The notes under the pieces were generated by a model. It did no database searches. It had not been told where the DNA came from and worked only from the letters and a program-made list of their open reading frames with translations. Of a DNA stretch of 64,000 nucleotides, positions 2,509 through 29,316 are shown in pieces (position 1 is the stretch's first letter; each line of letters starts with the position of its first letter). The stretch is from a virus, in the IMG/VR virus record IMGVR_UViG_3300019889_000008, positions 1 to 64,000 of that record. One strand, written 5' to 3'. Made by a program: the position numbers and the translations under genes.

Positions 2509-2785
2509 GGCCGTGCTCGCCGCCTACTGCCAAGCCTATGGCCGATGGGTCCAGGCCGAGCGCGGCATCGCCGAGATGGCGAAGAAGGACATGCTGACCG
2601 GCGGCCTGATGATCCGCACCAGCAACGGCAACGCCATCCAGAACCCGCTCGTCGGCACCGCCCACAAGGCTGCCGCGGACATGGTCCGGTATGCCTGCGA
2701 ATTCGGCATGAGCCCGGCCGCCCGGTCCCGCATCGCCGCTGGGCCGATCGACGACGGGTCGAAGTTCGACGGGCTGCTTGCCTAA
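2303..2785 (+). CDS. terS: Terminase small subunit, P27 family
   Basis: 160 aa. The N-terminus reads PTALKLIQGNPGKRPINKRE, the hallmark of the P27 family of DNA-recognition subunits of the packaging motor. A proline-rich linker and a helical body follow. The stop overlaps the TTG start of terL by 8 nt, which supports the pairing and translational coupling. Confidence 0.93.
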   Translation: MSKLRSSAKPTALKLIQGNPGKRPINKREPRPANVVPDPPEVLSTAAAIEWMRITPELHALGLLTGLDRAVLAAYCQAYGRWVQAERGIAEMAKKDMLTGGLMIRTSNGNAIQNPLVGTAHKAAADMVRYACEFGMSPAARSRIAAGPIDDGSKFDGLLA

Positions 2786-4367
2786 GAAGCGGGGCGCGTT
2801 CCCGGAGCGCGCAGAGAGGGTCCGCCGCTTCATCGAGTGCTTGGTCGTCCCGAGCGGTGTCGGCCAGGGCGGCCGGTTCCGGCTGCGGCCCTTTCAGCGG
2901 AAATTCATCAAGGCGATCTATGAGCCCCACACCTTCAAGGGGCGGAACTGGCGCCGGGTGGTGCGGCGGGCGATCCTGTCGATCGGCCGCAAGAATGGCA
3001 AGACCGCGCTGATCGCGGCGCTCGTGCTCGTCCATCTGTGCGGGCCCGAGGCGATCCGGAACGGCGAGATCTACTCGGCCGCCAATGAACGCGAGCAGGC
3101 CGCCCAGGTCTTCAAGGTCTGCCAGCAGATGATCCTGGCCGACCCGGAATTGCGTTCTCGAGCTGGGCTTGAGGTGATCCCGTCGACCAAGACCATCCTC
3201 TGCCGGCGCAACGGCAGCGTGTATCGGGCGATCTCGGCCGAGGCCGGGACCAAGATGGGCTTGAACCCGAGCGTGGTCGTCTATGACGAACTGGCGCAAA
3301 GCAAGAACCGGGCTCTCTACGATGCGCTCGATACCGGCATGGGCGCCCGCGAGGAGCCGCTCTTCATCGTCATCAGCACGCAGAGCAATGACCCGCAGCA
3401 CATCCTCTCGCAACTGATCGATGACGGGCTCCGGGCGGAAGACCCAACGATCGTTTGCCACCTATACGCCGTCCCCGACGATGCCGAGGACGTCTTCGAC
3501 GAAAGCGTCTGGAGCATCGCGAATCCGGCCCTGGACGATTTCCGCAGCCTGGAGGACATGCGGGCGATGGCGGCACGGGCGGCCCGCATGCCTTCGTTCG
3601 AGAGCACCTTCCGCAACCTCTACTTGAACCAACGGGTCGACTCGCAGAGCCCGGTCATCCCGCGGGCCGAATGGGAAGCCTGCCAGGCCGGCGAAACGCT
3701 GAAGCCGGGCGAGCGGATCTATCTCGGGCTCGACCTGTCGGCCACGACCGATCTGTCCGCGCTCGTCGGCTGCTCGGCCGATGACGGCGATCGGGTTTCG
3801 TCGTGGTTCTGGAAGCCCGGTGACTTGCTCCGTGACCACGAGCTGCGGGACCGGGCGCCCTATACCCTCTGGAAAGCGCAGGGGTGGCTCCAGGCGCCGC
3901 CCGGCAAGGCCATCGACTACGGCTACATCGCCGAGCAAATCGCCGCCCTGCAAACCGACTACGACGTTGCGGCCCTCGCCTTCGACCGCTGGCGCATCAA
4001 GGATCTGATGCGGGAGTTCGAACGGATCGGCTTGCAGACCTACGCCGACGACGACAAGCCGATCCCCGGTGCCCTGCGGCTGGTGTCCTGGGGCCAGGGC
4101 TTCCGGGACATGAGCCCGGCGATCGACGCCCTGGAGATCTCCATCTTGCAGCGCCGGTTCGCCCATGACGGCAACCCGGTGCTCAACTTCTGCATTGCCA
4201 ATGCCACGGCGGTTAGCGATCCGGCCGGCAACCGCAAATTGGACAAGTCGGCGACCCGGTTCCGGATCGACGGCGCCGTGGCCTGCGCCATGGCAGTCGG
4301 CCTCAAGGCCCGCGATCTCCAGCGGGTGGTGCAGCCGTCCTATCAGATGCTCTTCGTCGGAGGGTAG
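2778..4367 (+). CDS. terL: Terminase large subunit
   Basis: 529 aa, starting at TTG 2778. The Walker A-like motif SIGRKNGKT lies at 68-76 and Walker B VVVYDE near 166-171. The C-terminal RNase H-like nuclease begins with LGLDLSATTDLS near 315, carrying a metal-binding Asp. It is the ATPase and nuclease that cuts and packages DNA into the prohead. It resembles HK97-type large terminases that partner P27 small subunits. The stop is followed by a 178-nt gap with structured RNA and a terminator, unusual in this operon. Confidence 0.96.
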   Translation: MPKKRGAFPERAERVRRFIECLVVPSGVGQGGRFRLRPFQRKFIKAIYEPHTFKGRNWRRVVRRAILSIGRKNGKTALIAALVLVHLCGPEAIRNGEIYSAANEREQAAQVFKVCQQMILADPELRSRAGLEVIPSTKTILCRRNGSVYRAISAEAGTKMGLNPSVVVYDELAQSKNRALYDALDTGMGAREEPLFIVISTQSNDPQHILSQLIDDGLRAEDPTIVCHLYAVPDDAEDVFDESVWSIANPALDDFRSLEDMRAMAARAARMPSFESTFRNLYLNQRVDSQSPVIPRAEWEACQAGETLKPGERIYLGLDLSATTDLSALVGCSADDGDRVSSWFWKPGDLLRDHELRDRAPYTLWKAQGWLQAPPGKAIDYGYIAEQIAALQTDYDVAALAFDRWRIKDLMREFERIGLQTYADDDKPIPGALRLVSWGQGFRDMSPAIDALEISILQRRFAHDGNPVLNFCIANATAVSDPAGNRKLDKSATRFRIDGAVACAMAVGLKARDLQRVVQPSYQMLFVGG

Positions 4368-4368
4368 G

Positions 4369-4472
4369 CGGCCCGGCGACCGGCTTCGATCTTGGGGAGG
4401 GGCGAAACCACCGGAGAAGCCCCGACCGGAGAAGTCTCCGGGGTAGCAGGGCTAACGGTTTCCGCCGGGCCG
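4369..4472 (+). ncRNA. Candidate structured RNA after terL
   Basis: Nested perfect complementarities are seen. P1 is a 10-bp stem 4369-4378 with 4463-4472. P2 is 6 bp, 4404-4409 with 4457-4462. P3 is 5 bp, 4418-4422 with 4449-4453. P4 is a hairpin, CCGGAG 4426-4431 with CTCCGG 4436-4441 and an AAGT loop. All are compatible in one fold. It sits between the terL stop and a terminator hairpin, with no ORF. No known riboswitch signature was recognised. It may be a cis-acting regulator of the capsid gene or a processed small RNA. Confidence 0.5.
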
Positions 4473-4504
4473 ATCCGAAGATACGGCACAGATCAGAGAC
4501 CTAC

Positions 4505-4530
4505 AAGGGCGCAGTTGTGCGCCCTTTTGC
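4505..4530 (+). terminator. Rho-independent terminator before the capsid gene
   Basis: Perfect 9-bp stem AAGGGCGCA (4505-4513) / TGCGCCCTT (4518-4526), loop GTTG, then a short T-rich tail ending around 4534. It lies 16 nt before the protease-capsid start, so it may attenuate transcription from the terminase genes into the head genes. Confidence 0.7.
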
Positions 4531-4545
4531 TTTTGGAGCCTGCCC

Positions 4546-6516
4546 ATGCTCGATCGGGCTTACAGCATCCTGCATATCCGGTCCGTCGATGAAGACGCCC
4601 GAGTGATCGAAGGCATCGCCTCGACCCCGCGGGCGGACCGGATGGGCGACATCGTCGAGCCCATGGGCGCGCAGTTTGCGCTGCCGATGCCCCTCCTGTT
4701 TCAACATGACGCGCGGCAGCCCATCGGCCATGTCGAGTTCGCCAAGCCGACCAAGGACGGCATCCCGTTCCGCGCAGTGATCGCAAAGATCGCCGACGCC
4801 GGCAAACTCCGGGATCGGGTCGATGAAGCGTGGCAGTCGGTCAAGGCCGGCCTCGTTCGCGCCGTGTCGATCGGCTTCCGGGCCATCGACCGTGAATTCA
4901 TGGAAGGCGGCGGCATCCGCTTCAAGACCTGGGAATGGCTCGAACTGAGCGTCGTGACCATCCCGGCCAATGCCGACGCCACCATTACCACCATCCGATC
5001 GATCGACACCGAACTCAGGGCCGCGTCCGGCCAGCGAGTGCGGGTGAACCTGAATCCCCGTGAAGCCACGGGGCCGATCGGCACGTCCACCACTCTGCCC
5101 GGCGCCTCGGGCTCCCTGAAACAGAATGCGAAGAAAGGGGCCAAGGCTATGCCGAGGACCATCGCAGAGCAGATCACTGCTTTTGAGAACAGCCGCGCCG
5201 CCAAGGCGGCCCGGATGGGCGACATCATGAACACCGCCGGCGAGGAAGAGAGCACCCTCGACACCGAGCAGGCGGACGAATACGACGGCCTCCGCGACGA
5301 GGTGCGGGGCATCGATGACCACCTGGCGCGGCTCCGCGAGCAGGAGGCCATCCAGGCCGTTGTCGCCAAGCCGGTCAACGCGGTCGATACCCGCTCGGGC
5401 AGCGACGCCCGCGGCAGTCAGATCGTGATCGTCCGCGACACGAAGCTGCCGCCCGGCATCGAGTTCGCCCGCTACGTCAAGGCGCTCGCCGCGGCGAAGG
5501 GCAACCCGCAGATCGCCTATGAGATCGCGAAGTCGCAGTACCCCGACAACTCGCGCATCCATAGCGTCCTGAAGGCCGCGATCACGGCCGGCACCACGAC
5601 CGACCCGACCTGGGCCGGCCCGCTGGTGGACTATCAGGTTTTCGCCGGGGACTTCATCGAGTTCCTCCGCCCGACGACCATCCTGGGCAAGTTCGGCGCG
5701 AACGGCATCCCGTCGCTCTTCAACGTGCCGTTCAACATCAAGATCCCGGCTCAGACCAGCGGCGGCAACGCCTACTGGGTCGGCGAGGGCAAGCCCAAGC
5801 CCCTGACCAAGTTCGATTTCTCGCAGATCGAACTGCGCTGGGCCAAGATCGCGACCATCGCGGTCCTGACCGAGGAGCTGGTCCGCTTCAGCAACCCGTC
5901 CGCGGACGCGCTCGTCCGTAACGCCCTGGCCGATGCGGTTCGGGCCCGGATGGACATCGACTTCATCGACCCGGCGAAGGCGGCCTCGGCCAATGTCAGC
6001 CCGGCGTCGATCACCAACGGCGTTACCCCGATCGCGTCGACCGGCGACGTCTCCGCCGATCTGGATGCCCTCTACACGGCATTCATCACCGCGAACCTCT
6101 CGACCGCGAACGCCGTGTTCGTGATGAGCGAGATCCTCGCCCAGCAGATCTCGCGGGTGAAGACCCCGCTCGGCGCGGCCGAGTATCCCAACATCGGGCC
6201 GCGTGGCGGCTCCCTGGAGGGCGTGCCGGTCATCACGTCGCAGTATGTCCCGGCCGGGCTGATCATCCTCGTGGCGACCGATCAGGTCTACCTCGCGGAC
6301 GATGGGCAGGTTGTGATCGACGCCTCCCGCGAAGCGTCGCTGGAGATGCTCGACAACCCGACCAATGCCTCGGCGCCGCCGACCGCGACGTCGCTGGTCT
6401 CGCTGTGGCAGACCAATAGCATCGGCATCAAGGCCGAGCGCTTCATCAACTGGCAGAAGCGCCGGGTCGAAGCGGTGGCCTATGTCGAGGACGCCGACTA
6501 CACGCCGACGACCTAA
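4546..6516 (+). CDS. Fused HK97-type prohead protease and major capsid protein
   Basis: 656 aa. Residues 1-150 match the S78 prohead protease family, with catalytic His54 (LFQHD), Ser108 (AVSIG) and an acidic residue in WLELS. After a linker, residues about 205-275 look like the coiled delta/scaffold domain, and 280-656 are an HK97-fold capsid protein (YWVGEGKPKP, then a long capsid core). Protease and capsid are usually separate genes; here one polypeptide would be self-processed during maturation. It follows the terminator hairpin and has its own ribosome site (GGAG). Confidence 0.92.
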   Translation: MLDRAYSILHIRSVDEDARVIEGIASTPRADRMGDIVEPMGAQFALPMPLLFQHDARQPIGHVEFAKPTKDGIPFRAVIAKIADAGKLRDRVDEAWQSVKAGLVRAVSIGFRAIDREFMEGGGIRFKTWEWLELSVVTIPANADATITTIRSIDTELRAASGQRVRVNLNPREATGPIGTSTTLPGASGSLKQNAKKGAKAMPRTIAEQITAFENSRAAKAARMGDIMNTAGEEESTLDTEQADEYDGLRDEVRGIDDHLARLREQEAIQAVVAKPVNAVDTRSGSDARGSQIVIVRDTKLPPGIEFARYVKALAAAKGNPQIAYEIAKSQYPDNSRIHSVLKAAITAGTTTDPTWAGPLVDYQVFAGDFIEFLRPTTILGKFGANGIPSLFNVPFNIKIPAQTSGGNAYWVGEGKPKPLTKFDFSQIELRWAKIATIAVLTEELVRFSNPSADALVRNALADAVRARMDIDFIDPAKAASANVSPASITNGVTPIASTGDVSADLDALYTAFITANLSTANAVFVMSEILAQQISRVKTPLGAAEYPNIGPRGGSLEGVPVITSQYVPAGLIILVATDQVYLADDGQVVIDASREASLEMLDNPTNASAPPTATSLVSLWQTNSIGIKAERFINWQKRRVEAVAYVEDADYTPTT

Positions 6517-9018: not shown

Positions 9019-10404
9019 ATGCGCATCTTCGGGCTCTCGATCACCAGGGCGGATGCCACCAAGGCGCTGCCGACCAATCTGCGTCCGCCGAACAATCGTG
9101 GCGGCTGGTGGCCGATCATCCGGGAGCCCTATGCCGGCGCTTGGCAGCAGAACGTCGAGTGGACCACCGACGAGGTGCTGGCGTTCCCCGCGGTCTTCCG
9201 CTGCATCAGCCTGATCAGCAACGACATCGCCAAAATGGCGCTCATGCTGGTCAAGTGGGCAGATGGGATCTGGACCGAGACCGAGAGCCCTTCGTTCTCG
9301 CCGGTCCTGGCCAAGCCCAACGCCTACCAGACCCGCATCCAGTTCTATCAGTCCTGGGTCATCTCCAAGCTGGTCAACGGCAACGCCTACATCCTCAAGG
9401 AGCGGGATCAGCGCGGCGTTGTCGTGGCGCTCTATGTGCTCGACCCGTGGCGGGTCCGCCCGATGATCTCGGATGACGGCTCGGTCTTCTACCAGCTTGC
9501 GGTCGACACCCTCTCCGGGCTCGAAAAGAGCGTCACCGTCCCGGCCCGCGAGATCATCCATGACCGGTGGAACACGCTCTACCACCCGCTCGTCGGCGTC
9601 TCGCCGATCTTCGCTTGCGGCCTGGCGGCGATGCAGGGCCTCAAGATCATGCAGAACTCGGCGACCTTCTTCGCCAACGGATCGCAGCCCGGCGGCATCC
9701 TGACTGCGCCTGGCGCGATCTCCGACGAGACCGCGGGCCGGCTCAAGACACATTGGGATGCCAACTACACCGGCACCAACGTCGGCCGCGTGGCCGTGCT
9801 GGGCGACGGGCTCAAGTATGAGTCCATGGCCCTGTCGGCCACGGATTCGCAACTGATCGAGCAGCTCCGCTGGACCGGCGAGGTGGTGTGCTCGACCTTC
9901 GGCGTTCCCGCGTACATGGCTGGGATCGGGCCGATGCCGGCCTATAACAACATCGAGGCGCTGTCGCAGCAGTATTACTCGCAGTGCCTTCAGATCCTCA
10001 TTGAGAGCATCGAACTCTGCCTCGGCGAGGGGCTGGCGCTGCCGAAGCCCTACGGCGCCCGGTTCTCGATCGACGATCTGCTGCGGATGGACACGGCCAC
10101 CATGGTCAAGGCCGAGGCCGACGCGGTCGGCGCCGGCATCAAGTCGCCGAATGAGAGCCGGCTCCGCCTCAACCTGCCGCCGGTCAAGGGGGGCGGGACC
10201 CCGTATCTCCAGCAGCAGAACTACTCGCTCGCCGCCCTGGACGAGCGCGACAGCAACGACCCGTTCGCGCTGCCGCCGGCCCCGGCGCCCCAGGTTCCGG
10301 CGCCGGCTGATGACCAGGGGGATGACGAGCCGCCGGTCGACGAGGCCGTGGCCGCTTCCTTCGCAGCGCGGCTGACCCGGCGGCTGCTCCAGGCGGCTGC
10401 ATGA
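9019..10404 (+). CDS. Portal protein, HK97 family
   Basis: 461 aa. Typical features of the HK97 gp3-like portal are [18 protein letters not shown] near the N-terminus, VNGNAYI, HDRWNT and FGVPAYMAG. It forms the dodecameric ring through which DNA is packaged and the tail is joined. The gene lies downstream of the capsid, the reverse of the usual portal-protease-capsid order. It overlaps the next gene by 4 nt. Confidence 0.93.
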
Positions 10405-12047
10405 TCACGGTGGTGATCGGTCCGCCGACCGCGGGGAAGTCGACCTACGTGGCCGAGCACGCCAGGACCGGCGACGTGATCGTCGACTATGACGCCATCG
10501 CCAAGGCGCTCGGCTTCGCGGCCGACCATGATGTCGAGGGCTCGATCCGGCTGGTGACCCGATCCGCGCGGGTCGGCGCCATCAATCGAATTGTCGACGG
10601 CCTCGACGACGACGCTTGGATCATCGCCACGAAGCCGAAGCCGTTCCGGCTCCTTGCCTACGCCAAGGCCGGGGCGGAGTTCGTGATCGTCGACCCCGGC
10701 AGGGAGGAGTGTCTCCGCCGGGCCAAGCTCCAGAGCCGGCCGCCGGGCGTCTTCGCGGCGATCAATGACTGGTACGACGATCCGCCCGTGTTGCCGGGAG
10801 CGGATGGAGGGCCGAAGGCGATGCTCGGAAAAACTGCCGGCGTGGCCGACATGGCCGATGCTGTCTATGACGCGGTCGAGGTCTATGTCGAACGCCAGAT
10901 GCGCCCGATGCGGGGGCTGGCCACCACGAACCGGCAAGACATCGAAGCCTGCACGGCGATGCTGTGCGTGATGGAGACCGAGGTCAAGGATCTGCGCTCG
11001 GTCAATGGCGACCTTGTCGAGCGGCTTGTCGACCTGACAGAACGGCTGTCCATCCTGGAGGCCAGAGAGGCCATTGCCGGCCCGCAGGGGCCCGCTGGGG
11101 CCGATGGGGCGCCTGGAGTGGCCGGTGCCAGGGGCGAACCCGGCGAGGCTGGCCCAGCCGGCCCCCAGGGGCCTCCGGGCCAAGACGGCGTGGCCGGCCT
11201 GGCGGGCGAGTCCGGCCCGAAGGGCGAACCCGGCGAGATGGGCCCCGAGGGGCCGCAGGGTCCGGCTGGCCAAGACGGCCTGGCCGGCGCCGATGGCGCG
11301 CCCGGCGAGATGGGTCCGGCTGGGCCCCAAGGTGACATGGGCCCGGAAGGGCCTGCTGGCCGCGATGGTCTAAACGGGGCGCCCGGCGCCGATGGCGCGC
11401 CCGGCGAGGCGGGTCCGGCTGGCCCGCAAGGGGATATTGGCCCGGCTGGCCCCGCGGGCCTGGACGGGGCCTCTGGCGCCCCTGGCGAGGCCGGGGAGCC
11501 GGGTCCGGCTGGTGCCCAGGGCGAACGGGGCCTGGAGGGGCTACCGGGCGCCCCTGGCCGCGACGGGCGCGATGGCATGGCCGGTGCCCAGGGCGAACGG
11601 GGTCTGCCCGGTCCGCAGGGCGAGGCCGGCCCAGTTGGGCTGCGGGGCGACCGCGGCGAGAAGGGCGACCCCGGCCGCGATGGTGCCAGCGTCGCCGACA
11701 TGGACTTCTCCTCGCCGGATGGCGGCCGGACGTTCGTCTTCAGCATCGAGGGCGGCGATACCGTCCTCACCAACGAAGTCCAGACCCGGAACACGATCTG
11801 GCAGGGCGTCTATCACGAGGGCGAAACCTACCAGCCCGGCGACCTTGTCACTCTCGGCGGCTCCATGTGGCACTGCAACCTGGAGACCACCGAGCGCCCC
11901 GGCGAGGCCAAGGCCGCCTGGACGCTCTGCGTCAAGCGCGGACGCGACGGCAAGGACGGCAAGGACGGCGACCGCGGCGAGCGCGGGCCCGAGGGCAAGG
12001 CCGGTCGTGACCTGACCCAGATCGCTCCAGATGGGACGCGCTACTGA
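10401..12047 (+). CDS. P-loop kinase-like domain fused to collagen-like repeats and a carbohydrate-binding-like module
   Basis: 548 aa. Residues 1-170 resemble a small P-loop kinase: Walker [10 protein letters not shown] at 7-15. Residues about 175-225 are a probable coiled coil. About 226-430 are Gly-X-Y triplets, more than 60 in a row with few interruptions. About 460-510 contain a Trp-rich beta module ([15 protein letters not shown]) like chitin-binding or CBM5/12-like modules. A second short Gly-X-Y run ends the protein. It is likely a trimeric structural or fibre protein; the kinase domain is an unusual fusion. Confidence 0.8.
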
Positions 12048-29285: not shown

Positions 29286-29316
29286 GCCCCGGTCTTCTTG
29301 GCCGGGGCTTTTTTTT
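29286..29316 (+). terminator. Strong terminator of the late operon
   Basis: Stem GCCCCGGTC (29286-29294) / GGCCGGGGC (29300-29308), nine pairs with one G-T, loop TTCTT, followed by eight T at 29309-29316. It would stop the rightward late transcript that runs through the holin genes. Confidence 0.9.

Follow-up and report, generated by a model that had tools for sequence, protein, structure and literature searches.

Rho-independent terminators between phage late genes feature a GC-rich stem of 7–9 bp, a 4-nt loop and a T-rich tail, in + strand orientation only and at the end of a gene. The terminator-like hairpin described here resembles them in all of these respects. Unlike them, however, it carries an interrupted tail that merges into the Shine-Dalgarno sequence of the next gene, ~20 nt from the start codon. 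Among other described systems, the T7 gene 10 leader raises translation. The put and EAR processive antitermination RNAs are structured and precede a terminator, in phages or operons. Our locus lies in the window, that is, the whole stretch of 64,000 nt that was analyzed (bases 1–64000 of a 73.8-kb IMG/VR virus record). Similar to put and EAR, it has a putative structured RNA upstream of a terminator; in contrast to them, its inner helices are unconserved and it bears no sign of polymerase modification, the sequence comparison having been made with Rfam. As with the T7 gene 10 leader and, in LUZ100, the T7-like MCP unit, local transcription signals set the capsid gene apart from its neighbors. 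The MCP unit of LUZ100 comprises a local promoter together with a terminator that follows the capsid gene (PMC10134795). The window differs in that the terminator-like element is located upstream of the capsid gene and that a search for a sigma-70-like promoter in positions 3800–5200 found none.

The most similar junctions are those of Pseudomonas phage PAJU2, Salmonella phage FSL SP-016 and Escherichia phage JLK-2012. These phages have the same gene order as the window (terS, terL, fused protease-capsid gene, small ORF, portal gene) and share its hairpin, T-tract and Shine-Dalgarno sequence, but their gap is ~60 nt, the upstream structured region is missing and the capsid is ~50% identical.

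The terL–capsid junction

Open reading frames and Pfam matches in the window identify genes for a ParB/N6-N4 methylase, the small terminase (Terminase_4), terL and a fused S78 protease-capsid protein, followed by the portal gene at 9019. On its 3′ side, the portal gene is adjoined by a gene for a long collagen-like Gly-X-Y repeat protein with a P-loop-like N-terminus (10401–12047, + strand). Further downstream, a very strong terminator (29286–29308, + strand; 9 bp, TTTTTTTT) apparently marks the end of the late gene block. The original prediction had described a gap of 178 nt after terL, and this is borne out, with terL ending at 4367 and the capsid ATG at 4546. The junction comprises the following features:

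2778–4367, + strand: terL, large terminase of the HK97 type, the gene upstream of the gap (ORF; Pfam TerL_ATPase and TerL_nuclease)
4368–4545, + strand: non-coding gap of 178 nt between terL and the protease-capsid gene (ORF limits; 140–157 nt in L003, L006 and L007)
4369–4378, + strand: 5′ arm of the closing stem, directly past the terL stop codon (perfect 10-bp inverted repeat, GC-rich)
4379–4462, + strand: interior of the upstream hairpin, fast-changing and not conserved (alignment of relatives)
4463–4472, + strand: 3′ arm of the closing stem, partner of 4369–4378
4473–4504, + strand: linker between the hairpins (alignable in five close relatives)
4505–4526, + strand: terminator-like hairpin AAGGGCGCA-GTTG-TGCGCCCTT (stem kept with different pairs in relatives)
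4525–4534, + strand: T-rich tail TTTTGCTTTT (recurs in relatives)
4535–4538, + strand: Shine-Dalgarno sequence GGAG for the protease-capsid gene, immediately next to the T-rich tail (sequence; alignment)
4546–6516, + strand: fused prohead protease (S78) and HK97-type major capsid gene (Pfam Peptidase_S78 and Phage_capsid)

An ORF at 4392–4592 was considered as a small gene hidden in the gap and rejected: it has no Pfam match, and indels between the relatives L003 and L006 argue against coding. Rfam searches at gathering and permissive thresholds gave no family match in the gap (best E = 1.7), and at gathering score the whole window contains three tRNAs only. A DNA similarity search with the gap in a phage collection returned only a 26-nt chance match.

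A terminator-like hairpin adjoining the capsid start region

The hairpin stem comprises 9 bp with six GC pairs, and its inner part has a folding energy of −13.4 kcal/mol; across the close group, the hairpin energies range from −10.9 to −15.9 kcal/mol. The tail consists of T at 8 of 10 positions, is interrupted, and is present in + strand orientation only. The element thus combines a stable GC-rich stem-loop, an immediate U-tract and pairing that is conserved in relatives, as intrinsic terminators do. It is the only strong + strand terminator in the first 20 kb, where terminator-like sites of all grades number 8, as compared to 9.8 in shuffles. The 9-bp terminator predicted at this place therefore stands as a terminator-like hairpin with a T-rich tail that recurs in distant relatives; the type of element is known, and its location is a recurrent one.

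In our preferred explanation, to which we assign a probability of roughly 0.6, the intrinsic-terminator-like hairpin at 4505–4534 would end the terminase message, by partial termination or by mRNA trimming, and merge into the ribosome-binding leader of the protease-capsid gene. As an intrinsic terminator, it would probably be leaky. Termination may be poor because the T-tract is interrupted and is weak in some members (TTTGCATTT in L003 and TTTCGCATTT in L018).

Recurrence upstream of protease-capsid genes

At strict settings, a strong hairpin with a T-tract was found within 90 nt upstream of the protease-capsid gene in 17 of 75 distinct loci, as compared to a mean of 0.7 (maximum 2) in dinucleotide shuffles. 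Such elements were also rare in the other controls, with 0/76 upstream of terL, 5/79 upstream of the portal gene and 7/780 in random pieces. For 15 of these 17 hairpins, the distance from their end to the start codon is 15–31 nt. Recurrence reaches down to ~39–50% capsid identity and includes enterobacterial genome loci (L162–L165), whose capsid is ~50% identical; stem sequences differ between groups, with pairing maintained. The remaining 58 of the 75 relatives lack such a hairpin at the scanned thresholds, and it is thus not essential to the gene order. Named phages with the same junction comprise PAJU2, FSL SP-016, JLK-2012 and PPompW_132418; in Rhizobium phage RHph_X2_26 (12-nt gap) and SOVA965, the hairpin is absent at the junction. 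Of 5,426 complete E. coli genomes, 1,243 carry the JLK-2012 junction, and the examples read keep the stem while loop and flanks vary. Among the titles and abstract openings returned by a literature search, we recognized no paper describing a terminator upstream of the capsid gene, and a search naming PAJU2 found none about its terL–capsid junction.

The same data bear on a different role, in which the hairpin would serve mainly as the leader of the capsid message: it would block nucleases or mark a processed 5′ end, the U-rich stretch would recruit ribosomal protein S1 and increase capsid translation, in the manner known from the T7 gene 10 leader, and termination would be incidental. The location of the hairpin 15–31 nt before the start codon is in line with such a leader, and so is the T-tract, which runs into a strong Shine-Dalgarno sequence in distant relatives and, being often broken by C or G, fits a leader better than an efficient terminator. 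However, intrinsic terminators are characterized by precisely this combination of a stem and a T-tract right behind it, and a leader hairpin needs no abutting T-run. In addition, a pattern search found the hairpin-TTTT-GGAG composite before unrelated genes in other phages (L269, L270 and L272); compact phage genomes thus seem to share this design in general. We therefore consider a predominant leader function rather unlikely.

Cargo genes between terL and the capsid gene

In several relatives, the terL–capsid slot contains additional genes. L013 and L180 have an Acb2 anti-CBASS gene there and L042 has one for a type IV pilin; in further relatives, small RHH/NikA-like ORFs occupy the slot. Both acb2 genes (L013:2588–2845 and L180:4062–4319) are followed by a terminator-like hairpin directly before the capsid gene. 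This arrangement would fit a terminator that once closed a cargo (moron) cassette and was left behind, together with a degenerate spacer, when the cassette's gene was lost in the window's group. We consider such an origin improbable, as the terminator is present with a gap of 42–66 nt and without cargo in L018, L033, L034, L078, L085, PAJU2 and JLK-2012, and no coding remnant was found in the gap of the window. Since many cargo-free phages carry the terminator, it is independent of cargo.

Several further features were noted in passing. The pilin gene of L042, an IMG/VR contig, is located at 1453–1980 and encodes both the pilin domain (PF00114) and the N-methylation motif (PF07963); a phage-borne pilin would be unusual, and the contig may alternatively be a prophage or a misassembly. 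In the window itself, positions 61760–61960 (+ strand) match the Acb2/Tad1 hairpin family PF24729 above the cut-off (65.7 bits), and the predicted product is likely a cyclic-oligonucleotide sponge (anti-CBASS). Between acb2 and the terminator, L013 further contains a perfect 18-bp palindromic hairpin (GTTACCGATCGTCGGCAA ... TTGCCGACGATCGGTAAC; ~2870–2921, z of the region −8.5) that lies inside a second stem.

The upstream hairpin and its conservation in close relatives

The four helices originally proposed upstream of the terminator fit together into a single nested rod over 4369–4472, with the 10-bp repeat exact (10 bp, 4369–4378/4463–4472; 6 bp, 4404–4409/4457–4462; 5 bp, 4418–4422/4449–4453; 6 bp, 4426–4431/4436–4441). 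The minimum-energy fold uses the 10-bp helix and the apical 6-bp helix and pairs the middle otherwise. The length of the 10-bp repeat is mildly unusual for a sequence this rich in GC: among 300 dinucleotide shuffles of these 114 nt, 7 contained a perfect stem of at least 10 bp. The folding energy hardly stands out, either for the upstream hairpin of the window (z = −1.34 versus shuffles) or for the whole gap including the terminator (z = −2.19; 6 of 200 shuffles as stable).

Searches with terL in IMG/VR yielded four distinct relatives at ~90% terL identity, L002, L003, L006 and L007 (L003 having the same sequence as L004 and L005 across the compared 3.5 kb). The next relative, L013, has 84% terL identity and a terL–capsid gap of 418 nt. 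All five keep the terminator hairpin beside the capsid start, and the gap spans 140–157 nt in close relatives as compared to 178 nt in the window. In the four close relatives, as in the window, the upstream region opens at the terL stop with a long stem, which reads GGCCCGGCG/CGCCGGGCC in the window, GGCGCGGCG/CGCCGCGCC in L002 and GGCGCGGCAA/TTGCCGCGCC in L003 and L006. Over the only four distinct rows, it shows two full compensatory changes (G-C/C-G and G-C/A-T) and one C-G/G-U change. With the arms aligned by hand, 95% of cells are paired and 11 of 500 shuffles are as good, for four distinct sequences of which one is broken. The broken stem is that of L007, where an A·C mismatch leaves a 7-bp run, a length reached in 150 of 300 shuffles. 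In a neutral simulation at fourfold-site divergence, the chance of keeping a stem of at least 9 bp was <1% per lineage. Conservation of the outer stem is thus suggestive.

The inner helices have no counterpart in the close relatives, where alignment reveals unrelated sequence instead; L002 and L007 feature a different hairpin inside the outer stem. The energy z values of the upstream hairpin in five close relatives are −1.3, −1.8, −1.7, −3.0 and −0.5, and distant relatives with the terminator lack the upstream structure. Consequently, the outer stem and, in the closest relatives, a gap of 140–178 nt persist from the original proposal, but its three inner helices do not. With stability near that of shuffles, an elaborate structured RNA ahead of the terminator hairpin is weakly supported and not established. 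As a separate observation, numerous substitutions and indels distinguish the hairpin interiors of L003 and L006, whose sequences otherwise agree to ~99%; this sharp difference over ~50 nt (L003 ~1856–1915 versus L006 ~1579–1640) is confined to the interior and may stem from local hypermutation or from a template switch at the inverted repeat.

Linker identity between groups is 0.74–0.83, as compared to 0.67–0.73 at terL fourfold sites, showing little or no extra constraint. The linker was rejected as a promoter, as it contains no sigma-70-like site and its identity is near the fourfold-site level. A search with the linker pattern across IMG/VR matched 75 stretches; in the terL–capsid context these were the already known relatives only, and a mobile or widespread motif was thus also rejected.

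We further folded the transcript as far as the T-tract, once with 16 nt past the terL stop masked and once unmasked. The terminator stem has a probability of 0.98–1.00 in the window, L003, L006 and L013 under either condition. A competing GGGCACA/TGTGCCC pairing, found in L002 and L007 only, disfavors the terminator stem, whose probability upon masking goes up in L002 and down in L007. Attenuation, one of the functions originally suggested, thus finds no shared antiterminator fold (four of six sequences unchanged), and because the competing pairing is limited to L002 and L007, there is no switch common to the group. Two related candidates were discarded: the linker as antiterminator works on paper in L002 and L007 only, and a coupling to translation, in which a ribosome at the terL stop would free the hairpin, does not fit with masking leaving the stem unchanged in the window, L003, L006 and L013.

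The two compensatory changes, the neutral simulation and the kept gap size would favor 4369–4534 being one regulatory RNA, an attenuator or a put-like polymerase-modifying antitermination RNA whose upstream structure controls the terminator, but given the unconserved inner helices, the broken L007 stem, the lack of a common alternative fold and of an Rfam match, and the missing upstream part in distant relatives, we regard this as very improbable, and just as much so a phage-specific version that encloses a fast-changing interior in a conserved closing stem, anchored at the terL stop, and acts perhaps as a self-terminated small RNA or as a capsid-operon antitermination element.

Proposed function of the junction

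If the hairpin acts as an intrinsic terminator at the end of the terminase message, polymerase arriving from terS–terL would terminate at 4505–4534 part of the time; alternatively, the terminase mRNA would be trimmed back to the hairpin. In the capsid message made by polymerases that pass the hairpin, the U-rich stretch beside the Shine-Dalgarno sequence would lie open. Capsid transcription very probably reads through, because the hairpin is about 20 nt away from the ATG and the vicinity lacks a promoter-like site; the terminator would therefore be partial, or overridden in the late phase. It would lower capsid transcription from upstream unless the capsid mRNA gains stability or translation, and the sequence would accommodate either outcome. 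The upstream GC-rich stem-loop would represent a lineage-specific 3′-UTR structure, acting at most as a passive protector or spacer.

Should the hairpin terminate or protect transcripts, it would provide a simple switch point between low-dose terminase and high-dose capsid expression in HK97-type phages with a fused protease-capsid gene directly after terL; otherwise, it would be an ordinary terminator. As E. coli prophages commonly carry the junction, the effect of the hairpin would be directly measurable in them.
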